Below are positions 1 to 14,407 of a stretch of DNA of 64,000 bases, one piece after another (within the stretch, counting starts at the first letter, position 1; every line of letters starts with the position of its first letter). The translations under genes and the position numbers were made by a program. Source of the DNA: Pyramidobacter sp. C12-8 (GTDB lineage: Bacteria; Synergistota; Synergistia; Synergistales; Dethiosulfovibrionaceae); the NCBI RefSeq assembly GCF_002007215.1, contig NZ_MUHX01000004.1, forward strand, positions 1 to 64,000, written 5' to 3'. The notes beneath the pieces are model-generated. The model saw nothing but the letters and a program-made list of their open reading frames with translations. It did not search any database and was not told the DNA's origin.

Positions 1-183
1 GTGAGACTTCCGGATTCGCATGATGAGACTTCCGAACCTTCAACCTGTCTCATGGTGAGACTTCCGGAATCGGCAAGTCTCATAGTGAGACTTCCGGGAT
101 CTTCCGCAAGTCTCATAGTGAGACTTCCGGATTCGCATGATGAGACTTCCGAACCTTCAACCTGTCTCATGGTGAGACTTCCG
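1..183. repeat. Iteron-like repeat array inside the initiator gene (candidate origin)
   Basis: The 11-mer TGAGACTTCCG occurs seven times on the + strand, starting at 2, 24, 56, 86, 119, 141 and 173. Four copies are the right arm of an inverted repeat: GTCTCA-N3-TGAGAC at 47-61 and 164-178, and AAGTCTCA-TAG-TGAGACTT at 75-93 and 108-126. Bases 1-66 recur identically at 118-183, a 117-bp period (39 codons), so the reading frame of the overlapping gene is kept. Direct repeats plus dyads inside an initiator-type gene resemble lambdoid origins. The array may continue left of the window. Confidence 0.65.
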
Positions 184-428
184 ATTTTGTAAACCGTCCG
201 GTTTTGCCCTCGAGTTCGTTCGATAATCCCCTTTTTTCGAAGACCGTCCAGCGCCCGGCAGACCGTCGCTTTCGAACAGCTCGCCACGGAAGCGATCGTG
301 TCCAACGACGGCCAGCACTCTCCGTCGGCGTCGGCGTGGAACAGGAGAGCGATGAGAACCATTTTTTCCGACATCGGCAGATCCGACTTCAAGACGTTTT
401 CCGGAACGATCGCTTTCCGCTCGCTCAT
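1..428 (-). CDS. Phage replication initiator-like HTH protein (partial, C-terminus beyond window)
   Basis: The start ATG at 428 is preceded by a strong AAGGAGGT ribosome site and follows the ssb stop by 15 bases. The frame stays open to base 1, giving at least 142 residues. Residues about 15-75 form a winged helix of the type found at the N-terminus of phage replisome organisers and Rep proteins (motifs GECWPSLDTIA and SKATVCRALDGLRKKGIIER). After a YKIGS motif the protein becomes a low-complexity tail in which GSLTMR recurs, encoded by the DNA repeats at 1-183. The position downstream of ERF and SSB genes in a phage-like early operon supports a role in starting replication of the element, by analogy with lambda O. 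The replication role is inference; the HTH and repeats are seen directly. A plain HTH transcription factor is the alternative. Confidence 0.6.
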   Translation of the reverse strand, partial: MSERKAIVPENVLKSDLPMSEKMVLIALLFHADADGECWPSLDTIASVASCSKATVCRALDGLRKKGIIERTRGQNRTVYKIGSLTMRQVEGSEVSSCESGSLTMRLAEDPGSLTMRLADSGSLTMRQVEGSEVSSCESGSL

Positions 429-443
429 CCTGTCCACCTCCTT

Positions 444-920
444 CTAAAACGGGATATCCGCTTCCTCGCAGAAATCGGCAGCGCTTTCGCGCCGGTCGAA
501 ATTCTCCGCTTCCGCTTCGTAACGAGGTTCTTGCGTCCTCGGCCTTTGCGGAGCCTCGCAAGTTCCTTCCCGACTCTCTCTCCCCTTCGGCGAGCCGAGA
601 AACTGCACCGCCGAAGCGACGACTTCCGTAACGTAGCGCTTTTGTCCCTGGGCATCTTCGTAATTCCTCACTTGAATGCGACCTTCGACAAGGCAGGAAC
701 TTCCCTTGGAAAGGTACTTCTCCACGTTGACGGCCATGGCGCCCCATACCACGACGGGGATGAAGTCGCATTCGTCGATGCGTTGACCGTCTTTGCCCGT
801 CCGGCTCCGATTGACCGCCAGCGTCATGCTCGCCACGCTCGAATCGCCGTTGACGCGCCTCAGCTCCGGATCTCTCGCGAGATTGCCGATCAGAATCGCC
901 TTGTTGAATCCCCGCGCCAT
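444..920 (-). CDS. ssb: Single-stranded DNA-binding protein
   Basis: This 158-residue protein has a typical OB-fold N-terminus (start MARGFNKAILIGNL, then ARDPELR) through about residue 110, a flexible linker and the acidic C-terminal tip ending DIPF that docks partner proteins in the SSB family. The ATG directly follows the TAA of the ERF gene, so the two are co-translated. It would coat single-stranded DNA during replication and recombination of the element. Because it lies inside the phage-like early operon it is most likely the element's own copy rather than the host housekeeping gene. Confidence 0.93.
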   Translation of the reverse strand: MARGFNKAILIGNLARDPELRRVNGDSSVASMTLAVNRSRTGKDGQRIDECDFIPVVVWGAMAVNVEKYLSKGSSCLVEGRIQVRNYEDAQGQKRYVTEVVASAVQFLGSPKGRESREGTCEAPQRPRTQEPRYEAEAENFDRRESAADFCEEADIPF

Positions 921-1688
921 TTACATTCGTCCCTTCAGCGACTCCGACGCCGCCTCCACGATCTTCTCGAGGTCGGCGACCGGCATGCTCTTCAGGCCGT
1001 CGCCGATATCCTCGCGGCCGAGCACCCGGCGGACGAAAGGCGCGACCTCCTCGTTTTTCAATCCCAGCCCCGCGTCGCCCGTCAACAGATGTTTGGTGGC
1101 GCTCACCAGCTTGAGCCGACTCTCCTCTTCCGGCGTTTTGGCGGCCGGCGGCCTTTGGACGGCGTTCTTCGCTTCCGGCGGCCGCTGCGCCGTGCCGCGC
1201 GGCTCCGGCTTCCGATCGGCGTTTCTCGGCGCCGCCTGCTGCCGGTAGGATTGCGGAGGCGCCTTGCCCCGATCGCCTGCGCCGTGATTGACCGCCGCTT
1301 CTCCGTCGTCGTCGTCCGAGGCGATCCCCAGCATCGCGCACATAGCGTAGCGCCTCGCGTACGTGATAGCCGATCCCACGCCCTGGGGATCCTGTTTCGT
1401 AATCGGCATTCGCAGCGTCGAGGAAATCCGCTCTCCGGAGGAATGCGCCAGAACCGTCTCCAAGAACACGCTGAGCGCCCCGCGCTCCGATACCTCCACC
1501 GAAGGGATCTGCACCAGCGACAGCCCGTTCTCCTTCATCGGTTCCCGGCACGTGTTCCAACATTCCGCCAGCGTCGTGTACTTGCTGTTGAAGTAGGGGT
1601 TGGAGCTGTCCTTCACCGCGCATTTCATGGCTCCCTGCATTTTCGACAGGGCCGTGGCCAATTCCTTAATGCTCTCCGTACTGTCCAT
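921..1688 (-). CDS. ERF-family single-strand annealing protein
   Basis: The 255-residue protein starts at MDSTESI, with GGGAGG eight bases upstream; a longer in-frame start at 1718 lacks such a site. Residues about 1-130 match the ERF superfamily: NSKYTTL near the N-terminus, a GLSLVQ motif, and the signature ITYARRYAMCAMLGI followed by an acidic DDDD run. A basic low-complexity linker leads to a helical C-terminus. ERF proteins anneal complementary strands and act in phage genome circularisation and recombination, usually beside SSB as here. Its first codons overlap the end of the upstream 156-residue gene by 23 bases. Confidence 0.88.
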   Translation of the reverse strand: MDSTESIKELATALSKMQGAMKCAVKDSSNPYFNSKYTTLAECWNTCREPMKENGLSLVQIPSVEVSERGALSVFLETVLAHSSGERISSTLRMPITKQDPQGVGSAITYARRYAMCAMLGIASDDDDGEAAVNHGAGDRGKAPPQSYRQQAAPRNADRKPEPRGTAQRPPEAKNAVQRPPAAKTPEEESRLKLVSATKHLLTGDAGLGLKNEEVAPFVRRVLGREDIGDGLKSMPVADLEKIVEAASESLKGRM

Positions 1689-2136
1689 TTGCGAGCCTCC
1701 CTTCGCGCCGCGGCACAAAGCGCCGGATCCGAATTCCGTGCCGCAGAGAGCCTCGCCCCGCGCCGGCGAGAAATTCCCCTTCCTCGACCTCGACGAAGCC
1801 GAACAAACGCCACTTCGCGACCGTGCCGCCGGGAGCGAAGATGTTGCCCAGAACCTGTCGGTCCACGCCGAGACAGGCCGAAAGCTCGTCCATCAGCGCC
1901 AAATGGCGCTCCGTCCAGAGAGGGGCGAAGAGCACCCCGCTCTCGCGCAGATGGGCCGCTTCCCAGCGAAACGTGGCCAACCCGCCGCCGCACTCCTTCG
2001 GCAGCGCGAAGGCCAGGAAACCGGAGCGGAAAAACTTCCCGCTCCGGAACCGGTCGCAACGGCGATCCTCCCAGCAGAACTTCACCAGCTGGCCCCGAAA
2101 TACTCCGTGCAGGGACTCATTCCGCGGGGACTTCAT
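1666..2136 (-). CDS. Hypothetical phage-type protein, 156 aa
   Basis: I do not recognise this family. The frame overlaps the 3' end of the zinc-finger gene by 20 bases and the 5' end of the ERF gene by 23, the tight packing expected of a phage early operon. A GAGGA site precedes the ATG. The protein is rich in aromatic and charged residues (for example FRWEAAHLRESG and FAPLWTERHLALMDEL) and ends in a basic tail. No signal peptide or membrane segment is visible. A recombination-related role is possible from context only. Confidence 0.6.
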   Translation of the reverse strand: MKSPRNESLHGVFRGQLVKFCWEDRRCDRFRSGKFFRSGFLAFALPKECGGGLATFRWEAAHLRESGVLFAPLWTERHLALMDELSACLGVDRQVLGNIFAPGGTVAKWRLFGFVEVEEGEFLAGAGRGSLRHGIRIRRFVPRREGRLANGQYGEH

Positions 2137-3262: not shown

Positions 3263-3409
3263 CTATACCTCCTCTTTTCCCAACAGTCTTTTCGCCAGCT
3301 TCGCGACGAAAAGCGCCACGCCCTTCGCCAGACGCCGCCACAACGGCCGCGCCCTCATGTGCCCCGCCAGCCTAACCGTCAACGCGACGACCTCCTCTCC
3401 GCGCGTCAT
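3263..3409 (-). CDS. Small basic amphipathic protein, 48 aa
   Basis: Its ATG overlaps the TGA of the upstream HTH gene as ATGA (3406-3409), so it is probably translationally coupled. The sequence is rich in Arg, Lys, Leu and Ala (for example LWRRLAKGVALFVAKL), consistent with a single amphipathic or membrane-associated helix. Only two bases separate its stop from the next gene's start. No family is recognised; the overlap pattern is the main reason for calling it real. Confidence 0.5.
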   Translation of the reverse strand: MTRGEEVVALTVRLAGHMRARPLWRRLAKGVALFVAKLAKRLLGKEEV

Positions 3410-3735
3410 ACGTCGCTTCCATCGAACACCTCTCCCTTCTTTATCCGCTCGATCAGGTCCCGAACCTCGTCCACCGCCCAGCCGCTGCGTCCCGTCGTCA
3501 CCTTCCTGGGCCTGGGGTACTTCCCCAGCCGCACCTGATCGCGCAGCGTGCTCTTGCCGATGCCCATGATCTCGGCAAACGTCTCTTCCGAGATAAAGCC
3601 CTCGGCCGGCAGTTTGCACACCGCCTCGACGTTCTGCACGCGGGCGCTCTTGTGCGCCTTCTTCGCCAGACCGTCGAGGATGTAGTCCCCAAGACGCCTG
3701 ACATCGCCGTCCGACATTTCCAGTTCGACATTCAT
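3406..3735 (-). CDS. AlpA/MerR-like helix-turn-helix protein, 109 aa
   Basis: The start at MNVELEMSDG is chosen because GGGAGGTG lies seven bases upstream; a GTG at 3756 would place that site inside the gene. The C-terminal half (FISEETFAEIMGIGKSTL, then VRLGKYPRPRKV) is a helix-turn-helix with a wing like those of AlpA-type prophage regulators and excisionases. It is the first gene of the leftward early operon and is divergent from the 59-residue gene at 3826. Likely roles are activation of the early operon or excision; both are inference. Confidence 0.7.
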   Translation of the reverse strand: MNVELEMSDGDVRRLGDYILDGLAKKAHKSARVQNVEAVCKLPAEGFISEETFAEIMGIGKSTLRDQVRLGKYPRPRKVTTGRSGWAVDEVRDLIERIKKGEVFDGSDV

Positions 3736-3770
3736 GCCGTTTTCACCTCCCGACACAATCTCATCCGCCG

Positions 3771-5125: not shown

Positions 5126-5815
5126 ATGTCTACTTTTGGAGAGAGATTAAGCAATGCAATTAAAAATTCTGGCCTTACCAAGAAATATATAGCTGAAAAA
5201 TTAAATACAACTACTACAACCGTTTATCGTTGGGAAAAAAACATCAACCAAGCGAACGACGACGTGAAGAAACAGCTAGCGAAACTCTTGGACGTTTCGC
5301 TCTCCTATCTCATGGGCGAGTCATCCACTTCTAAGTTCGACAGCATAGAAGCGGATTTAAGCGGCCCCTTCCGCAAAACGATTCCCGTTCCGCTTTACGC
5401 TGAAGGCGTTTGTTGCGGAAAGGGATTCTCCTACGGTGCAGACGACAACAGCGAACAGCCCGAAAGCTTTCTGCCGTTTTGCCCTCCGGCGGTCGGCCAG
5501 GGTGCCAACGGCAAAATCATCGCAATTCGCGTCAGTGGCAATTCGATGATTGACGCTGGGATCCGCGAGGGTTCCATCATCTTCGTCGTTCTGGACTCTG
5601 AAATTCACGATCGGCAGCCCGGAGTGGTCTGCGTGGGGCCGGATCACAAGATGCTGGTGCGATGCGTAATCAGGAAACCTGACGGTTCCAAGGTCCTTCG
5701 AGCCAAAAATTCGCGTTATCCTGACGAGATCGTCTCGTTGGAAGACATCGAAGCGGGCTGGTATCGCGAGATCGGCCCTATCATCCAGGTATCCAGCACT
5801 CCCGAGTGGGCATAG
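5126..5815 (+). CDS. CI-like repressor with S24 peptidase domain
   Basis: The 229-residue protein has an N-terminal HTH (residues 5-62, LTKKYIAEKLNTTTTTVYRW) and a C-terminal LexA/CI-type S24 domain from about residue 85. The nucleophile serine is S140 in VSGNSM, and a Cys-Gly bond near residues 97-98 could be the cleavage site. The general-base lysine expected near 179 in the family (VKR context) is absent: the sequence reads KMLVRCV. It may therefore be a repressor that does not self-cleave, or that uses K175. The start is fixed by GAGGTGAG eight bases upstream. It lies divergent from the Cro-like gene. Confidence 0.88.
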   Translation: MSTFGERLSNAIKNSGLTKKYIAEKLNTTTTTVYRWEKNINQANDDVKKQLAKLLDVSLSYLMGESSTSKFDSIEADLSGPFRKTIPVPLYAEGVCCGKGFSYGADDNSEQPESFLPFCPPAVGQGANGKIIAIRVSGNSMIDAGIREGSIIFVVLDSEIHDRQPGVVCVGPDHKMLVRCVIRKPDGSKVLRAKNSRYPDEIVSLEDIEAGWYREIGPIIQVSSTPEWA

Positions 5816-5847: not shown

Positions 5848-5892
5848 AGCACAGGCGCCCCGTCTTCGTATCGAAGACGGGGCGCCTGTGCT
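5848..5892. terminator. 21-bp perfect hairpin after the CI-like gene
   Basis: Arms 5848-5868 and 5872-5892 are perfectly complementary around a TAT loop, starting AGCACAGGCGCC. There is no T run directly after the stem; ATATTTTT follows about ten bases later. It separates the repressor from the cargo genes and probably ends the repressor transcript. It could also be a protein-binding or processing site. Confidence 0.55.
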
Positions 5893-5926
5893 TGAGGGCA
5901 ATATTTTTACGAAAGGGGACGATGTT

Positions 5927-7324
5927 ATGCTCGATTTCGTTGCCATCGATTTTGAAACAGCCAACAGCGGAAGGGACAGTCCATGTTCACTGGGAGCCGT
6001 GATTGTAAAAAATGGGACTATCGAGAAAACCTTTTATTCTCTTATCCACCCCCACGACTCCTGCTTTTACTTTGATCCATTCAATACCGAAATTCATGGC
6101 ATTACGGAAGATGATGTTATGGATTCCCCCGAGCTGCCTGAAGTGTGGAAAAATCTGGTCGATGATTTAAGTGGAAGTACACTCATAGCTCACTTCTCCA
6201 GCTTCGATTGCAGCGTTATACGCTATACGTTTCCCCTCTATGACCTTTCTTTCCCCGAGTGTACGATTCTTTGCTCACGTAATGTCGCAAAACGTCAATG
6301 GCCAGACTTACTTTCTTACGGTTTATCTAACGTCGCCGAACTTCTTAACTTTGATTTTATCCACCACAACGCACTGGAGGACGCCAAAGCCGCAGCAGCT
6401 ATTATTTTCGAAGCTGCCCGTCTCCAAAACGCAAACTCCTGTGAAGAACTTGCCCAAAAGCTTCAACTAAAAATGGGGCTTTTTCAAACAGATCAATACA
6501 TTCCATCAAGAAGACTATCTCCCAGGAGCTCCAAGAGCATTAAAATACCAGAATGTCTTGATCTTACAAATCCTGAATTGAATCCAGATGATTACCCATT
6601 TTGGGATAGAGATGTTGTATTTACAGGTACATTGCTGAGCATGAAACGGGAGGATGCTTTCAAAAATATCGCCGCTGCAGGTGGTCGCCCACAGAACGCA
6701 GTAAACAAAAAGACGGATTATCTCGTGATGGGAGAACAAGATTATAGTCGGTTTAGCAATGGAGAAAAAAGCAGTAAAACTATAAAGGCCGAGGAATTGA
6801 AAGCCAAAGGCAGTGCCATTGAAATTATCTCCGAAGCAGATTTCTTGAACATGCTTGGAGATAAAGTAACGATCCCCCAAAATACAAGCAGCGATTTTAA
6901 AGACGAAATATACTTAAAAGGAATACAGCCCAAATTTGATGAATCTCTGGAAACTCTTCGCCAAATCTGTGCTGAGGTGATTGAACCTCAAAGAATAAAA
7001 ATGAATCAACGTAAGTACTTCGCCGTGATTGAATTGGATGGAAACAAAGGCATGCCGATTTGCTGCTTTTTCACAAAAGGGAATTCCGTTAGCATCGCAT
7101 TCTATGATGAGAACAATAATCAAATGGAGCGATGCATCATGTATAAATACGACGCGCTTTACGACAACAGCTTCGACTTAAAAAATCTAATCCGCAAATA
7201 CCTTGGAATACCATTAGAAAAGCCCCCTTATGAAGACGGCCTTGTACACGTAAGACGGAGGGGCACAAGAATAGAATTTTCAATCGACTTAGAACAGCTA
7301 CAAGCTCAGAAAAAAGAGGAATAA
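5927..7324 (+). CDS. DEDDh exonuclease fused to BRCT domain
   Basis: The 465-residue protein starts at MLDFVAIDFETAN, after an AAAGGGG site. Residues 1-165 are a DnaQ/Pol III epsilon-like 3'-5' exonuclease with D8, E10, D94, H147 and D152 in the order of the DEDDh family. Residues about 226-312 are a BRCT domain (DVVFTGTLLSMKREDAF, then AAAGGRPQNAVNKKTDYLV) as in NAD-dependent ligases. Residues 330-465 form a third domain I do not recognise, starting near PKFDESLETL. Exonuclease-BRCT proteins occur widely in Firmicutes and on mobile elements. The coding DNA is clearly AT-richer than the flanking chromosome, suggesting separate acquisition. A repair or anti-phage role is inference. Confidence 0.85.
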   Translation: MLDFVAIDFETANSGRDSPCSLGAVIVKNGTIEKTFYSLIHPHDSCFYFDPFNTEIHGITEDDVMDSPELPEVWKNLVDDLSGSTLIAHFSSFDCSVIRYTFPLYDLSFPECTILCSRNVAKRQWPDLLSYGLSNVAELLNFDFIHHNALEDAKAAAAIIFEAARLQNANSCEELAQKLQLKMGLFQTDQYIPSRRLSPRSSKSIKIPECLDLTNPELNPDDYPFWDRDVVFTGTLLSMKREDAFKNIAAAGGRPQNAVNKKTDYLVMGEQDYSRFSNGEKSSKTIKAEELKAKGSAIEIISEADFLNMLGDKVTIPQNTSSDFKDEIYLKGIQPKFDESLETLRQICAEVIEPQRIKMNQRKYFAVIELDGNKGMPICCFFTKGNSVSIAFYDENNNQMERCIMYKYDALYDNSFDLKNLIRKYLGIPLEKPPYEDGLVHVRRRGTRIEFSIDLEQLQAQKKEE

Positions 7325-7400
7325 TGTCGTGCTAATTTTGTTTGAAGCGATGAGACATTGAACTGACATATGCACGCAGCACTGCGCCGATTCGCCGTGC

Positions 7401-7706
7401 TCAAGCCGGCGTGTGCGAGGCGCCGCGGATGCTCAGGATTTGTCCGTTTTTATCGACGCGCATTTCGTAATAATCCGGGTCGCCGATTACGTAAAAAGGA
7501 TTCGCCTCTGCAGTTTTATATCGCTCCATAAATTCCGCAGGAGTGAAGTGCCGTATTTCATCGTCGGAATCAATGACGATCCAGTCGCCGGCTTTTGCCA
7601 ATTCCACGCCGTGACTGTTGCCGATATAACGGTCTTTGGCCGTCTGAAACGCACGTACTTGGGCCGGGCGTTCTTCGAAAATACCAATCTTCTCATCCAG
7701 TGTCAT
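7401..7706 (-). CDS. PGDYG-like small protein, 101 aa
   Basis: The protein contains RYIGNSHGVELAKAGDWIVI, then EIRHFTPAEFMERY, the pattern of small phage- and plasmid-borne proteins that combine a GDW strand with a PxxFxxxY motif. AAAGGATCG precedes the ATG. It is the only cargo gene on the minus strand and is divergent from the protease gene with 37 bases between starts, so the two may share a control region. No enzymatic motif is visible. Function unknown. Confidence 0.6.
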   Translation of the reverse strand: MTLDEKIGIFEERPAQVRAFQTAKDRYIGNSHGVELAKAGDWIVIDSDDEIRHFTPAEFMERYKTAEANPFYVIGDPDYYEMRVDKNGQILSIRGASHTPA

Positions 7707-7743
7707 TGCAACGATCCTTTCTACTCGCGAAGGAGTGATATTG

Positions 7744-8562
7744 ATGACTGTACCAGTCCGTTTGCCCTATAACGAAGGAGTATTTTTTGCAACGGTTAGA
7801 ATTGTGGCATGCAATAGTCAACCTCCTCGAAAGTCGACTGGAACGGGGTTCTGCTTCAGTTATGAGCGCGAGGGAATGCCGCAAAGCACTTTCATCGTAA
7901 CGAACCGGCACATGGTTGCGGGTTTTGATAGTGGCACCTTGTACTTTCACAAATCCAACAACGGCAAACCCAGTTACGAGAAACCTATAGAATGCTTTGT
8001 TGCTTCGTGGAGCGAGTGGTTCTGTCATCCGGATCCGAACGTGGACATCGCCATTCTTCCAAGCGACAATAACATTCTGAGTAACGCCGGCATGGACGAA
8101 GAACTTTTCACGCAATGCGTCTCCTCTTCCCTTGTTCTTGATGATAACATGCCGCACCCGCTTGAGGAAGTATTTTTTGTAGGTTATCCGGCTGGCCTTT
8201 GGGATGAACAGCACGCGCTCCCAATTGCCCGGCGGGGAATTACCGCCTCGTTTATCAATCAAGATTACAATGGAAGACCATGCTTTTTGATAGACGCTTC
8301 CGTGTTCGGCGGCTCAAGCGGAAGCCCCGTTTTCCTTCTGTCGTCTAAATTAAGTTCGCGGGAACCGGGAACCATCTCATGGGGTAAAAGATGTTATTTT
8401 ATCGGCGTCGTTGCTGAAACGCAACTCACGCTCGCTCGGACATTAAAGGTAAATGTTCCGCAGCAAACACTCCCGGCAGAACATCTGAATCTGGGCATAG
8501 TTTTCAAGGCAAGAACAGTTATCGAAACAATCGAAGCATGGAAAAAGTCCACCGAAAAGTAA
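7744..8562 (+). CDS. Trypsin-like serine protease, cytoplasmic
   Basis: This 272-residue protein has the chymotrypsin-fold triad: H56 in IVTNRHMV, D101 in DPNVDIAIL and S192 in FGGSSGSPVF. There is no signal peptide, transmembrane segment or PDZ domain, unlike DegP/HtrA, so it should act in the cytoplasm. The start is chosen from AAGGAG ten bases upstream; a GTG at 7735 is the alternative. Stand-alone trypsin-like proteases of this kind are known as effectors in bacterial conflict systems. Its location in cargo between a repressor and an integrase is consistent with that, but the target is unknown. Confidence 0.85.
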   Translation: MTVPVRLPYNEGVFFATVRIVACNSQPPRKSTGTGFCFSYEREGMPQSTFIVTNRHMVAGFDSGTLYFHKSNNGKPSYEKPIECFVASWSEWFCHPDPNVDIAILPSDNNILSNAGMDEELFTQCVSSSLVLDDNMPHPLEEVFFVGYPAGLWDEQHALPIARRGITASFINQDYNGRPCFLIDASVFGGSSGSPVFLLSSKLSSREPGTISWGKRCYFIGVVAETQLTLARTLKVNVPQQTLPAEHLNLGIVFKARTVIETIEAWKKSTEK

Positions 8563-8654
8563 TCGATGCGATGTCATGCGGTCTGCCCCAAGCCGCGGTC
8601 GCTGTAAGGAGACTTTTATGGAAGTTCAGTAAAAAGAATTGAAGGTGTTCGAAG

Positions 8655-9884
8655 ATGTTATACCAAACACTAAGAAGTTATTACTATAAGAGTAATGCCG
8701 AATATCAATCAGAATACGAGGCAAGGTTTTTTGCTCCTTTTACCCGGCGATTCGATTTTGAAGTGCAGCAAACAGGATGGTCATCTACGCATAAAATCTT
8801 TTTCTGTTACACGGAAGAGATTGTTACACTTTTAGTGGATATCCTAAAAGAAAACTACGCACTAGGTGCAATTATGAGAAGAACCCCGATTGTAGCTCTA
8901 ATACAGCTAAACAAGCAAAGTCTACGCGAAGAAATATTCTCCACGAATGAAATTGAAGGGGTCAGAAGCAGCAGAAAGGAAATCAAACAGGCCATTGAAA
9001 ATCAATTGTCGAAAGACAAAAGAAACCGCTTTTATAGCATTGCAGGTAAATACATCAAGCTTTCAAAAAAAGAGTCGATTCCTTTTCAAACTTGCGAGAA
9101 TCTGAGAAATTTCTATGACAATTTTGTTGCAGATGAAATCAAAGCTGAAAATCCTCAAAATTTACCTGACGGAAAGCTGTTTAGAAAAGCCGGAGTTTCT
9201 GTGCGCACTCCTACACAAAAAGTTTTGCATGAAGGATTATTTCCAGAAAAAAAGATAATACAAGCAATGACCGACGCATTGGGATTACTTCACGATGAAA
9301 CCATTCCTTCTCTCATCAGAATTTCTATCTTTCACTACCTTTTTGGCTATATCCACCCTTTTTATGACGGTAACGGCCGAACGTCTCGATTCATTGCTTC
9401 ATATTACCTGTCCCAAGAGCTTCAAAATATCGTAGGGCTTAGGCTTTCCATAACAGTGAAACAAAGAAAAAAAGATTACTACCAAATTTTCGATGAAACA
9501 AATAGCGATATAAATCGAGGAGATTTAACCCCGTTTATTACCCAATTCTTGAATTTTATTCTAGTCACAATACAGGGACTTCAAAAAACTCTTCAGGAAA
9601 AGCTCCAACAACTTTCTAAATATGACACTGCTCTAAAGAAACTACTTAAAGACAAGGGATTGGAAGATGATCTGCTCCATCGAATCTGTTACGTTCTCTT
9701 ACAAGCTGCAATGTTTAGCAGTGATGGTGCAACGATCAGGGAGATTCAAGACGCGGTCGAAAAAGCACGAGGTACTGTTGATAACAGAATATCTAAAATA
9801 CCATCTGAGTGGATTCTGAAAGACACTTCACCACGACAACATCGGTATAAGTTTAATGTTTTAGCGTTACGTTCCCAGCTCTGA
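8655..9884 (+). CDS. Fic-domain protein (class II) with C-terminal winged helix
   Basis: The 409-residue protein has the Fic motif HPFYDGNGRTSR at residues 234-245, matching HxFx(D/E)GNGRxxR, which transfers AMP or another nucleotide phosphate to hydroxyl side chains of target proteins. An inhibitory helix motif (S/T)xxxE(G/N) is present at T97-G102 (TNEIEG), placing it in the class whose N-terminal helix autoinhibits. A Fic_N-like region precedes it. The last 80 residues (GATIREIQDAVEKARGTVDN) look like a winged helix, so it may bind DNA. No separate antitoxin gene is visible. The DNA is AT-rich compared with the flanks. The catalytic class is well supported; the target is unknown. Confidence 0.9.
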   Translation: MLYQTLRSYYYKSNAEYQSEYEARFFAPFTRRFDFEVQQTGWSSTHKIFFCYTEEIVTLLVDILKENYALGAIMRRTPIVALIQLNKQSLREEIFSTNEIEGVRSSRKEIKQAIENQLSKDKRNRFYSIAGKYIKLSKKESIPFQTCENLRNFYDNFVADEIKAENPQNLPDGKLFRKAGVSVRTPTQKVLHEGLFPEKKIIQAMTDALGLLHDETIPSLIRISIFHYLFGYIHPFYDGNGRTSRFIASYYLSQELQNIVGLRLSITVKQRKKDYYQIFDETNSDINRGDLTPFITQFLNFILVTIQGLQKTLQEKLQQLSKYDTALKKLLKDKGLEDDLLHRICYVLLQAAMFSSDGATIREIQDAVEKARGTVDNRISKIPSEWILKDTSPRQHRYKFNVLALRSQL

Positions 9885-9889
9885 GAGGA

Positions 9890-9935
9890 ACAATTTATCT
9901 TCACAAAAATGGCGTATTTTGAGAAGATAAATTGT
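9890..9935. repeat. Inverted repeat 1 downstream of fic
   Basis: Arms of 19 bp (9890-9908 and 9917-9935, beginning ACAATTTATCTTC) pair with one mismatch around an 8-base loop. It lies just after the fic stop and may terminate transcription from either side. Confidence 0.6.
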
Positions 9936-9948
9936 GTTGTAAGTTGTT

Positions 9949-9978
9949 ACTTCACAAAAAAGGGTTTTTTTGAGAAGT
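9949..9978. repeat. Inverted repeat 2, related to repeat 1
   Basis: ACTTCACAAAAAA, GGG and TTTTTTTGAGAAGT form a dyad sharing the CTTC(A)CAAAA/TTTTGAGAAG core and even the same A:A mismatch with the repeat at 9890. Two copies of one dyad suggest a shared binding site or a duplicated terminator. Confidence 0.5.
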
Positions 9979-10063
9979 TCCGCAATTCCCCCCTTTAAAC
10001 CTGGAAATCATAGTCAAACATACAAAAGGCTCATGTAACCCAAGCAGCATTAACGTCTCAGAC

Positions 10064-10087
10064 CATTTTCGTGAGGTCACGAAAATG
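10064..10087. repeat. Inverted repeat 3
   Basis: CATTTTCGTGA-GG-TCACGAAAATG is a perfect 11-bp dyad with a two-base centre. The form fits a dimeric regulator's operator better than a terminator. Its sequence differs from the two dyads to its left. Confidence 0.5.
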
Positions 10088-10188
10088 ATTGCCTGGCGGA
10101 CGACATCAAGAAAGTCGAACGCCGGACGCGCTCGGAAGCGAAAAAAAAGCTCAAACTGAACGTCGCTCGCCTCTCGCACACAGAATAG
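10075..10188 (+). pseudogene. Possible gene remnant, about 37 codons
   Basis: The frame opened after a TGA at 10072 reads CLADDIKKVERRTRSEAKKK and on to a TAG at 10186, with charged helical content and GC-rich third positions unlike the AT-rich neighbours. It lacks a start codon, so it is best read as the 3' end of a decayed gene. The rest of 9885-10266 holds only the inverted repeats. Confidence 0.3.
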
Positions 10189-10266
10189 CTGACGAGCAGA
10201 TCACAATAGCAACACCCCCTTGCCTGTTCGCTCCAAGGGGAATATTCATATCGGGAGGATGATTCT

Positions 10267-10494
10267 ATGAAAAAGCGCTGTTTCGTCACAATCCTCGTTT
10301 TGTTCGCGATATGCGCTGCGGCGCCAACATTGCGCGCCGTAGCGGAGACAACGGTCTATATTGGCGACGAAAGTTACAAGTACCACAGAAAAAACTGCCG
10401 CACCCTGCGCGGCAACAAATACCCGCTGACACTCTCCGAAGCCAGGAAGCAAGGCCTCAAGCCCTGCAAGGTCTGCAATCCGCCGGCAGAGTAA
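10267..10494 (+). CDS. Secreted small protein with Ada-like metal-binding motif
   Basis: The 75-residue protein begins with a clear signal peptide (MKKRCFVTILVLFAICAAA, likely cut after A26). The mature part has YHRKNCRTLRGN, then LTLSEARKQGLKPCKVC, the HxxxC...CxxC pattern found as a tail on secreted nucleases and as a stand-alone domain. H40, C44, C67 and C70 are the likely metal ligands. GGGAGGAT precedes the ATG. It probably works outside the cytoplasmic membrane; the partner is unknown. Confidence 0.75.
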   Translation: MKKRCFVTILVLFAICAAAPTLRAVAETTVYIGDESYKYHRKNCRTLRGNKYPLTLSEARKQGLKPCKVCNPPAE

Positions 10495-10556
10495 AGGATT
10501 GAAACCGTAGATAAGCGAGAAAGAATTACTATTTTTTAAGCAGGAGCGTGACATCC

Positions 10557-11924
10557 ATGCGACCTAATCAGAAGTCATTGTCCCTTCAATCCCTTAAACT
10601 CGACCTACATAACCCACGACTGGACATCCAGAAGGATGATAACGCTGCGCTTTCAGCGATAATTGCTCAACAGAGCGAAAAAATTATCTACCTTGCAGAG
10701 GAGATTGTTAAGCAAGGTTTTATGGCGGACAGTCTCTTTTATGTGATGCCTGTTCAAGGAAATAACTCCCAATATACTGTCCTGGACGGAAACCGCAGGT
10801 TAACTGCTTTGCGAATTCTGCAGAACCCTGATCTGCTGGCAGGAACAAAGCTCAAGAATAAAATTAACTCCTTGAAAAAAATTATCAAAAAAGACACAAA
10901 TCTACCCAGTCATGTCGATTGTCTCGTTTTTCCTTCACGCAAAGAAGCTACGCTCTATCTGGAAAAGAAACATTCGGGACCAGATAAAGGACGCGGCGTT
11001 GTTCCCTGGAGATCTATAGAAAAAAGGCGTTTTAAGGAAAGACAGGGGAATACGCCTGACCGCATCGTAAACCTGCTCGATTTTTTGCAGGACGCAAAAG
11101 TTCCTATCCCTGATAATTTCCCCATTACAAACCTTGAGCGCCTTCTTAGCTCTCCTGATGTCAGGAAGAAGCTTGGCGTACAGTTAAAAGGCGGGCGTTT
11201 CTTCTGTGCCATAGAAAAAGAGGACTTTGTGCGCAATATGGCGCAGATCATTAACGAACTAGCACAAAAGGGCGCTGTCAACAGGATTCGTACTGTTCCG
11301 GATCGAGTTGCGTTCGTCGACACGTTGAATCTGCCTCCAGAGAGACCAGACATATTATGGGAACCTCGCCCAACAGGCGCGTCGACACCTTCAGCAAATG
11401 CATCTTCTTCATCACAGAAGGATACGCTGATCCAAGAAACGTTGTCTGCCCCCAAGAGACAACAAACTTCCACACAGGACAGAAAATTTCTGATTGCCAA
11501 GGAAACGAAATACAATATTCAATCCTCTGCTAACCCACGCCTTAATAACATTTATCGCGAATTAAAAAAGCTCGATATATCACTGTTTCCCAATGCCGGA
11601 GCCGTTTTGTTCAGAGTTTTTTTAGAATTGAGCATCGAGATATTTATACAAGACAAACATATACCAACACCACGTAATTGCAAAGATATGAAGCTAATTG
11701 AAAAGCTAAATATAATCAGAAGTTATTTAAAGGACGAAGGCTTCGATGAAAGAAAGTTAAAAGGCATCGATGTTGCAATCAGTAACAAAGATAACATTTC
11801 CTCGATCAATACATTCAATGCCTATGTTCATAATTCCAGTTTTAGTCCTGATCCGCAATCATTAAAAACTGCATGGGATAACCTTCTTCCTCTGTTCGAT
11901 ACCATTTGGCAAAAAGACAACTAA
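10557..11924 (+). CDS. ParB N-terminal-domain protein
   Basis: The 455-residue protein has a ParB/sulfiredoxin-like nuclease-fold domain at residues about 10-110 (DLHNPRLDIQ, then TVLDGNRRLTALRIL). The middle is variable with a Ser/Thr/Pro linker near 275-305. A helical C-terminal domain ends in NTFNAYVHNSSFSPDPQSLK, resembling the helical tail of HEPN-like and abortive-infection proteins, although no Rx4-6H motif is obvious. It lacks the HTH of true partition ParB, and no ParA is present. ATG at 10557 is preferred because AGGAG lies ten bases upstream. It is followed after 55 bases by the adenine methyltransferase, so the two probably work together. The function is inferred from context only. 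Confidence 0.75.
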   Translation: MRPNQKSLSLQSLKLDLHNPRLDIQKDDNAALSAIIAQQSEKIIYLAEEIVKQGFMADSLFYVMPVQGNNSQYTVLDGNRRLTALRILQNPDLLAGTKLKNKINSLKKIIKKDTNLPSHVDCLVFPSRKEATLYLEKKHSGPDKGRGVVPWRSIEKRRFKERQGNTPDRIVNLLDFLQDAKVPIPDNFPITNLERLLSSPDVRKKLGVQLKGGRFFCAIEKEDFVRNMAQIINELAQKGAVNRIRTVPDRVAFVDTLNLPPERPDILWEPRPTGASTPSANASSSSQKDTLIQETLSAPKRQQTSTQDRKFLIAKETKYNIQSSANPRLNNIYRELKKLDISLFPNAGAVLFRVFLELSIEIFIQDKHIPTPRNCKDMKLIEKLNIIRSYLKDEGFDERKLKGIDVAISNKDNISSINTFNAYVHNSSFSPDPQSLKTAWDNLLPLFDTIWQKDN

Positions 11925-11979
11925 ATACCTCTGGCCAAATCAAGCAACGTGGTATATACTTTCAGAGGAGGTGAATATC

Positions 11980-12876
11980 ATGTCATTTTATACTCCTTTG
12001 CGCTATCCCGGAGGTAAAAGAAAACTCGCTCAGTTCCTTGAGCTTCTTATCAAAGCCAATAAACTTGAAGGCTGCACTTACGTTGAACCTTACGCCGGCG
12101 GCGCAGGACTGGCATTGCACCTTCTCTTCAATCAATTGGCCAATAAGATCATCATCAACGACATCGACAAATCCGTTTTCGCCTTCTGGTATTCCGTACT
12201 GCACTATCCTGACGAGTTGTGCCGGATGATTCATGACACTCCCGTGACTATGGATGTCTGGTATGCACAGAAAGCCGTTCATCTCGGCGCAGATAAGTTT
12301 TCTCTTTTGGAACTCGGCTTCTCCACTTTTTTTCTGAACCGGACAAACCGTTCCGGAATTTTAAGCGCCGGCGTGATCGGCGGCAAAGCACAGAACGGCC
12401 GCTGGAAATTGGACGCCCGCTTTAAGAAAGACGAGTTGATTGCGCGCATTCAAGCAATCGCCGAGCGAGGCAACCAAATAGAGCTTTATGAAGATGATGC
12501 GATTCAGCTTTTGGAACGAATGGAACCCCGGCTTCGCAAACGCCCTGCTCTTTTCTACCTCGACCCCCCTTACTACCATAAAGGATCGATGTTATATCAG
12601 AATTTCTACGAGCCAGAAGATCATGAGAACGTTGCCAGCAGAGTAGAAAAACTCAGTTCCCCGTGGCTGGTATCCTATGACAACGCCCAACCAATCAATG
12701 CTCTGTACTCTCAGTACCGCTCAATGACCTATTCTTTAAATTACACTGCCCACCGAAAGGTCATGGGAGATGAGTTTATGGCCTTTTCAGATCATCTGCA
12801 GCTCCCTGGGAATTTACTGAGCGGAACCATGAAAATATCTCCAATGCACAACATACAGTTCAAAGAATCGGCATAA
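11980..12876 (+). CDS. D12-class DNA N6-adenine methyltransferase
   Basis: The 298-residue protein has the Dam/D12 layout: an N-terminal LRYPGGKRKL motif, the AdoMet-binding motif EPYAGGAGLALHLL (residues 36-49) and the catalytic DPPYY (195-199). The ATG is six bases after AGAGGAGGTG. Family members methylate GATC or related sites. No restriction endonuclease with a recognised motif lies beside it; the neighbour is the ParB-domain protein. It may protect the element, or form an epigenetic or defence pair with that protein. Confidence 0.92.
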   Translation: MSFYTPLRYPGGKRKLAQFLELLIKANKLEGCTYVEPYAGGAGLALHLLFNQLANKIIINDIDKSVFAFWYSVLHYPDELCRMIHDTPVTMDVWYAQKAVHLGADKFSLLELGFSTFFLNRTNRSGILSAGVIGGKAQNGRWKLDARFKKDELIARIQAIAERGNQIELYEDDAIQLLERMEPRLRKRPALFYLDPPYYHKGSMLYQNFYEPEDHENVASRVEKLSSPWLVSYDNAQPINALYSQYRSMTYSLNYTAHRKVMGDEFMAFSDHLQLPGNLLSGTMKISPMHNIQFKESA

Positions 12877-12915: not shown

Positions 12916-14136
12916 TTATTTCATCAATTCGATATCTCCTGAATCCACGCGCCCCTCTTTGACGGCGTCCAGATAGTCGGCCCACCACTGCATCATCCGA
13001 CGACGCAGCGGCAGCAGCTTGCTTTTGTCGTACGTCGCCTCGGTCTTGTCGCGTTTGAGATGCGACAGCTGACGCTCGATGGCCTCGTGGTCCCAGTGAT
13101 GCTCGTGCAGCAGCGTGCTGGCCATATGGCGGAACCCGTGCAGGTCGATCAGCGGCGGCGTGTCGGGCGCGGGCACGTGCACGACCAGCCATTTCAGCGC
13201 GACCTCCATGGCCGAAATCCCCATATACGGCGAGCCGCTCGGCGTGTTCCGCGTCGAGGGAAAGATTGGCTTGTCCTCGAACGGCTGCCCCTTCCAGCGA
13301 ATCTGCGCGATACGGCGCATGGCGTCCAGAATCTCCAGCGCCTGGCGCGAAAGAGGCACGATCTGAATGCGTTTTTTCTTGGCGTGCACGACGGGAATGT
13401 GCCATTCGTCCTCGTGAATCTCCGCCCAGGTGGCCCTGCGAAGCTCCGATCTTCTCACGAAGGTATAACCGACCATCCTGAGGGCATACCGCACGATCTG
13501 ACGCGGATAGCAGTCGATCGCCAGCAAAAGCCGACGCACCTCGCGCGGGTCGAACGCGGATTTGAAGTTCCGCACCTCCCATTCGGGGAGGGAACGGCTC
13601 AGATCGGCGGCGACGTTGAGGCCGATTTCCCCGCCGTCGAAGGCCAGGTCCAGAATCGACCGCGCCAGCGCCCCCGTGCGCCGCGCCGTGTCGATCAGCC
13701 CGCGCTCGATGGGGTGCTGCAGAACCTCCAGCAGTTCGGGCCGCGATATCTCCACCACCGGCCTGTTGGCCAAATACGGCAGCAGATACATCTCGATACG
13801 ACGCTTGATGATCTTGTAATGGTCGGGAGATACCGCCTTCTCTTTCTTCTTCAGCCAGCGCGCGAAGACGTCCCCGAAAGTCACCGTCTTGTTGCGAATC
13901 GACATGCCGGTGCGCGCCTTCATCTTGCGGTCGTCGCGCTCGCGCCGCGCTTCCTGCAGCGACATGACGGGATACTCGCCGATGACGACCTTGCGCTCCC
14001 TGCCGCCGACGAACGAGCGGATCAGCCATTTCTTTTTTCCCTTCGTGCTGATCCTCAGATACAGCCCGTCGCCGTCAAAAAGCATGTAGTCTTTTTCCTT
14101 CGCCGCAGCTTTGGCAATCGCCGTGTTCGTCAACAT
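12916..14136 (-). CDS. int: Tyrosine recombinase (P4-type phage integrase)
   Basis: The 406-residue protein has the N-terminal DUF4102-like arm-binding domain (GDGLYLRISTKGKKKWLIR), a core-binding domain and a C-terminal catalytic domain. Catalytic residues R228 (VRRSEL), H333 and R336 (HGFRH), H359 and Y369 are all present, so it should be active. The ATG at 14136 has GAGGTG six bases upstream; a GTG at 14145 overlaps that site. It lies at the element's right end, next to tRNA-Met genes, with its start facing them, the usual layout for integration at a tRNA 3' end. Confidence 0.93.
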   Translation of the reverse strand: MLTNTAIAKAAAKEKDYMLFDGDGLYLRISTKGKKKWLIRSFVGGRERKVVIGEYPVMSLQEARRERDDRKMKARTGMSIRNKTVTFGDVFARWLKKKEKAVSPDHYKIIKRRIEMYLLPYLANRPVVEISRPELLEVLQHPIERGLIDTARRTGALARSILDLAFDGGEIGLNVAADLSRSLPEWEVRNFKSAFDPREVRRLLLAIDCYPRQIVRYALRMVGYTFVRRSELRRATWAEIHEDEWHIPVVHAKKKRIQIVPLSRQALEILDAMRRIAQIRWKGQPFEDKPIFPSTRNTPSGSPYMGISAMEVALKWLVVHVPAPDTPPLIDLHGFRHMASTLLHEHHWDHEAIERQLSHLKRDKTEATYDKSKLLPLRRRMMQWWADYLDAVKEGRVDSGDIELMK

Positions 14137-14273
14137 GTGCGTCACCTCGGATTTTTGGTACGGTTTCGGCCGCGAAAAAATCGTCCACGAATTTTTAGTA
14201 CGGAAATAGGTACGCTTTTTTCTTGGATTCCCCCGTTTTCCGTCGGCCTTCCTCGGTGACAGTATAACAAAAA

Positions 14274-14330: not shown

Positions 14331-14407
14331 TGGTGGCGGTAACTAGATTCGAACTAGTGACACTGCGGGTATGAACCGCATGCTCTAGCCAACTGAGCTA
14401 TACCGCC
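14331..14407 (-). tRNA. tRNA-Met(CAT), elongator type
   Basis: A 77-base cloverleaf with encoded CCA: acceptor GGCGGTA pairs with TACCGCC, anticodon stem TGCGG/CCGCA, loop TTCATAC (anticodon CAT), T arm with GTTCGAATC. The first base pair is normal, unlike the initiator next to it. A tRNA-Ile2 with lysidine at C34 also has a CAT gene anticodon and cannot be excluded. Confidence 0.93.

Follow-up and report, generated by a model that had tools for sequence, protein, structure and literature searches.

The initiator gene and the prophage around it

The window (the whole 64,000-nucleotide stretch of Pyramidobacter sp. C12-8 that was analysed) begins inside a phage replication initiator gene, upstream of which, on the same strand, lie genes for a single-strand DNA-binding protein and a single-strand annealing protein. 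The features considered below are the following, in window coordinates unless contig C106 is named.

1–428, minus strand: 5' part of the initiator gene (ATG at 428; the rest on C106:110–728)
2–183, minus strand: iteron array, seven exact 11-mers with starts at 2, 24, 56, 86, 119, 141 and 173
1–66: first copy of a 66-bp block with a 117-bp period; the assembly breaks here
118–183: second copy of the 66-bp block, 100% identical to 1–66
47–61: dyad GTCTCA-N3-TGAGAC
77–91: dyad GTCTCA-N3-TGAGAC
110–124: dyad GTCTCA-N3-TGAGAC
164–178: dyad GTCTCA-N3-TGAGAC
222–383, minus strand: winged-helix DNA-binding domain (Pfam HTH_36, E = 1.2e-14; PHROG replication initiation families)
255–275, minus strand: start of the recognition helix, SKATVCR, whose Ala3 and Arg7 fit the GTCTCA iteron class
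444–920, minus strand: SSB (single-strand DNA-binding protein), same operon as the initiator
921–1718, minus strand: ERF-family single-strand annealing protein, same strand as SSB and the initiator
3406–3756, minus strand: excisionase/regulator-like protein
5126–5815, plus strand: CI-like repressor (HTH and S24 peptidase)
12916–14145, minus strand: tyrosine integrase of the prophage
14331–14346: 16-bp attachment core TGGTGGCGGTAACTAG, at the 3' end of tRNA-Met; the other copy at C106:24204
C106:718–2076: DnaB-like helicase gene, next after the initiator gene and overlapping it by 11 bp

Window base 1 is base 1 of contig C133, i.e., the contig end, and the start of contig C106 was found to be the reverse complement of window 1–109, a 109-bp overlap (C106:1–109) across which the initiator frame was joined. 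A Shine-Dalgarno sequence (AAGGAGG) lies 8 nt upstream of the ATG at 428, and the joined frame comprises 348 codons from this start, or 351 from GTG 437; these lengths are minimal, since the contig break lies inside the 66-bp repeat and the assembly does not fix the number of 117-bp units. Beyond the overlap, C106 supplies a fifth dyad (103–117), an A-rich stretch (118–152) and a C-terminal domain extending to 728. The preliminary description of this DNA had placed the repeats in the coding tail of a winged-helix, initiator-like gene next to ERF and SSB genes. The gene, its reading frame and both neighbours were confirmed, as was the position of the array within the coding frame, but the supposed tail is a linker between two domains in a window that starts at a contig end. 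Followed to the left of base 1, the frame meets no early stop and runs on into the second initiator domain, after which the DnaB-like helicase gene was observed directly.

The N-terminal domain matched phrog_270, phrog_391 (O-like) and other PHROGs, and tblastn matched genes annotated as "replication protein O". Both halves of the protein matched phrog_8102 (replication initiation protein) in order, first at positions 31–104 and then at 184–317. The C-terminal domain gave no Pfam match, no relevant PDB sequence and no match to phage records by tblastn, and window 1–2000 gave no match to phage records by DNA similarity. A DnaD-like helicase loader was considered and rejected, the DnaD_N score (25.6 bits) being below the cut-off of 27 and the C-terminal part being free of Pfam matches. 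The AlphaFold model of an initiator homolog, from the sister prophage in genome G003, had a mean pLDDT of 45.

Both contigs end inside the repeat. Elsewhere in the assembly, contig ends share 55 bp, which points to k = 55, less than the length of the 66-bp block; an artefact of assembly might thus account for the repeat structure or for the join of C133 to C106. This is extremely improbable, as the array is carried independently by both contigs, the join restores a complete initiator-helicase unit in which a single PHROG is matched in order, and the G003 sister prophage is organised in the same way. The contig break had also been considered as proof of at least three 117-bp units, and this argument was dropped, since the 55-bp overlaps imply that a 66-bp repeat is by itself sufficient to break the assembly.

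The element was delimited as a prophage of ~38.4 kb in the tRNA-Met gene on the basis of the integrase next to tRNA-Met, the two copies of the 16-bp core, the terminase and portal genes on C106 and the CI-like repressor. In the same-species genome G181 the prophage is absent and its flanks meet with exactly the 16-bp overlap, leaving one core copy and thereby identifying an empty attachment site; the prophage and its site are direct observations. The prophage is possibly defective. Inside it, a low-GC stretch (window 5888–11924, 41–44% vs ~60%) separates the CI-like repressor from a D12-class adenine DNA methyltransferase (11971–12876, next to the integrase end); this stretch looks like acquired cargo or a defence island and encodes an RNase_T-type exonuclease (5888–7324), a Fic protein (8655–9884) and an unassigned 458-aa protein (10548–11924); a putative trypsin-like protease was noted by eye at 7735–8562.

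The iteron array and its counterparts in related initiator genes

The repeat unit is the 11-mer TGAGACTTCCG (reverse complement CGGAAGTCTCA), and its seven exact copies, spaced 32, 22, 33, 30, 32 and 22 bp apart, have no counterpart elsewhere in the window or on C106 outside the same array. Five of the seven iterons extend to perfect GTCTCA-N3-TGAGAC (6-3-6) dyads, and the remaining two have a degenerate right arm. Recounting returned the seven 11-mers and the four full dyads reported previously, the fifth being cut by the window edge and whole on C106, and the repeats do form inverted pairs as had been stated. The 66-bp block recurring with a 117-bp period was likewise reproduced. Growth of the array by whole 117-bp units, also proposed at that stage, is sound as in-frame arithmetic; a change in copy number was itself not observed. 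The initiator gene contains 21 repeat pairs, whereas 100 codon shuffles gave 1.28 on average and never more than 6. The helical phasing of the iterons departs only weakly from randomness, being reached by 1.5% of random spacings, with points made dependent by the 117-bp duplication. A search of 182 other genomes of the order found no dyad-plus-half-site pattern. The last dyad is followed immediately by the A-rich ACGAACATATACAAGAACATAAAACATC, with 65% AT over 40 nt, a value equalled at other places in the initiator gene.

The 117-bp unit arose by a recent, exact and in-frame duplication, and linkers tolerate repeats, so that the array could be regarded as a protein linker of low complexity that replication slippage has lengthened and that is kept for its peptide or neutrally. 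This explanation is very unlikely, as the 11-mer is read in two frames that give different peptides, GSLTMR and EVSSCE, which indicates conservation of the DNA and not of the peptide. The repeated GSLTMR peptide of the preliminary description is therefore encoded as stated, and is only a by-product. Similarly, what the homologs conserve is DNA palindromes and not peptides, and the sequence of the DNA word varies with that of the recognition helix.

Iterons in the homologs were observed directly. In 24 Synergistota homologs of the same order, repeats at offsets of 20–24 bp numbered 45 in the linker, against 5.4 ± 2.3 expected, and were about at the background level in the N-terminal part. The same repeat pattern was obtained for lambda O and P22 gene 18, whose origins are annotated where the repeats are concentrated. 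Palindromic arrays of at least three copies were present in 15 of 35 homologs (1.5 expected), and a clear palindromic array was lacking in about half of the distant homologs from Synergistota. Palindromes of individual homologs, e.g., GTGCACCACGTGCAC, GTGTCACGGTGACAC and GTCCGTTATACGGAC, are spaced by ~22 bp and are followed by an A-rich stretch; in 66 initiator genes pooled, an AT peak and A-richness occupied the 40 nt immediately following the last dyad. Since linker iterons ~22 bp apart are general among the homologs, the array does not represent a new origin family, as had been suggested; the arrangement, the inverted repeats and the variable copy number are also found in homologous initiators of phages, in lambda O and in P22 gene 18.

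Three further observations were made on initiator genes. A viral initiator gene (L124 2378–2587) carries nine GTCTCA dyads, mostly at 22–23 bp spacing, an array longer than that of the window. A double C tract after the A-rich stretch, e.g., CCCCCTTACCCCC(TAAAGGGGG), was detected in 5 of 65 initiator genes vs 0 of 152 background windows, its carriers including P22 gene 18, L009, L021, mEp554 O, Thermus phage Cumys and L207; the window gene has G tracts where those genes have C tracts. Five consecutive initiator-like winged-helix matches, mostly in small ORFs, lie on one contig (G106:C74 3877–5947).

Palindromic sites of winged-helix proteins are typical of operators, and the initiator might bind its own gene mainly for transcription control, with replication starting elsewhere. 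In an Eggerthellaceae MAG (L114 642–3110), five tandem GTCTCACCATGAGAC dyads do lie between genes, at an exact spacing of 37 bp and outside any initiator. Against the operator function, which is consequently held to be improbable, the array of the window is situated deep in the coding region and not at a promoter, its many copies at ~22-bp spacing followed by an A-rich stretch recur in most relatives, and the equivalent stretch in lambda and P22 is the origin. Single GTCTCACCATGAGAC dyads also occur near the five tandem ones of the Eggerthellaceae MAG, as another use of the same palindrome.

Recognition helix and iteron half-sites

The association between iteron and DNA-binding domain was evaluated by scanning viral contigs for pairs of a given dyad, using the DNA pattern alone. 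The GTCTCA scan returned 41 contigs, and 21 of the 28 dyad-covering ORFs scanned matched the initiator family phrog_270, whereas two control dyads matched in base composition returned 4 and 6 contigs. Further scans were made for GTGTCA, GTGCAC and GTCCGT. The alignment behind the helix-finding HMM was mixed and contained both the GTCTCA set and the window sequence, and dyad-covering ORFs with no HTH match amounted to 8 of 31 for GTCTCA, 13 of 37 for GTGCAC and 4 of 4 for GTCACA. Before helix residues were counted, the winged-helix domains were clustered at 60% identity, and the clusters are not fully independent.

Arginine was found at helix position 7 in all 47 clusters with GTCTCA or GTGTCA, both ending in TCA, vs none of the 24 with GTGCAC, GTCCGT or GTCTAC (p = 2e-19), and alanine at position 3 in 16 of 17 GTCTCA clusters vs 2 of 54 others (p = 8e-13). 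Among all domain columns, positions 3 and 7 displayed the strongest association with the half-site. Identity outside the helix was nearly the same within and between half-site groups (0.250 and 0.241, respectively), so the groups are not clades and relatedness does not explain the co-variation, which is itself directly observed. For GTATCA, a forecast was made in advance (Arg7 at least 90%, Ala3 rare), and it was borne out for Arg7 (12 of 13) and partly for Ala3 (5 of 13).

These counts suggest, with good though not full confidence, that helix residues 3 and 7 track the half-site of palindromic iterons (GTNNNN-N3-NNNNAC) in the same gene and thus constitute a readable recognition code, in which Arg7 would go with half-sites ending in TCA and Ala3 mainly with GTC. 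The specificities of origin and initiator would accordingly evolve together in one gene, and the origins of uncultivated phages would be predictable. The co-variation supports, at the level of sequence, binding of the initiator to the iterons. No description of such a helix-iteron code was found in the open-licence literature and, going by that literature, the general link between helix residues and same-gene iterons is what is new here. It provides a way of testing origin specificity in silico for many phage initiators.

The sister prophage of G003 shares the gene order, with an excisionase-like protein 93% identical and a helicase 52% identical to those of the window prophage. Its initiator has the iteron GTCCGT-N3-ACGGAC and the helix VRSTCFK, compared with GTCTCA and SKATVCR in the window. 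Similar neighbours beside a different iteron and helix would be read most simply as a joint exchange of initiator and origin. The co-variation thus suggests that an origin can switch specificity and yet keep its initiator, the two being one gene and exchanged together.

The proposed origin and comparison with known systems

The layout of gene and array is a direct observation. The analogy of lambda O and P22 makes it very probable that the ~38.4-kb temperate phage has its replication origin at the array, inside its own initiator gene. An intragenic origin of this kind is of the lambda O/P22 gene 18 type. Origin activity itself is inferred from those two phages, as are binding, the dimer on each dyad, the opening of the strands and the loading of the helicase. 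The N-terminal winged-helix domain of the initiator would bind the palindromic iterons in the DNA that encodes its own following linker, probably with one dimer per GTCTCA-N3-TGAGAC dyad. Binding along the array would then bend and strain the DNA and open the A-rich stretch after the last iteron, and the C-terminal domain would assist in loading the product of the next gene, the DnaB-like helicase. For the window, the outcome is that a new prophage has been assigned a putative origin and a replication module, with the claim of a new origin family removed.

The closest system in layout is P22, with an Erf system, an O-like initiator with an internal origin and a DnaB-like helicase of its own. 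P22 encodes erf, and the Erf cofactor Arf is present in its record. As in the window, its gene 18 has an annotated rep_origin inside (nt ~353–497) and is followed by the DnaB-like gene 12. The P22 iteron, however, is of the GGTAAA type and erf lies in the opposite operon, whereas the window has ERF, SSB, initiator and helicase on one strand, a C-terminal domain of another family and a longer array with 22 and 30–33 bp spacing.

The phrog_8102 family and the G003 initiator resemble the window gene over both domains, belonging to the same family, preceding a DnaB-like helicase gene and carrying palindromic linker iterons. The G003 protein differs in its C-terminal part, which is only ~28% identical, as well as in its iteron and helix.

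Lambda O, named as the precedent in the preliminary description, was upheld as such, with annotated iterons inside O and the origin there. Like the window gene, it has inverted-repeat iterons in mid-gene; these are followed by an AT-rich tract, of which the A-rich stretch of the window gene is the putative counterpart. In lambdoid phages each iteron is an imperfect inverted repeat of 19 bp, the iterons lie midway along O with the AT-rich tract adjacent, and their copy number is variable, with 4 in lambda and 6 in Stx phages (PMC7466680). Unlike the at least seven iterons of the window gene, four are annotated inside lambda O, and in lambda the handover is from O to P and it is P that brings in DnaB of the host, whereas the phage of the window encodes its own DnaB-like helicase.
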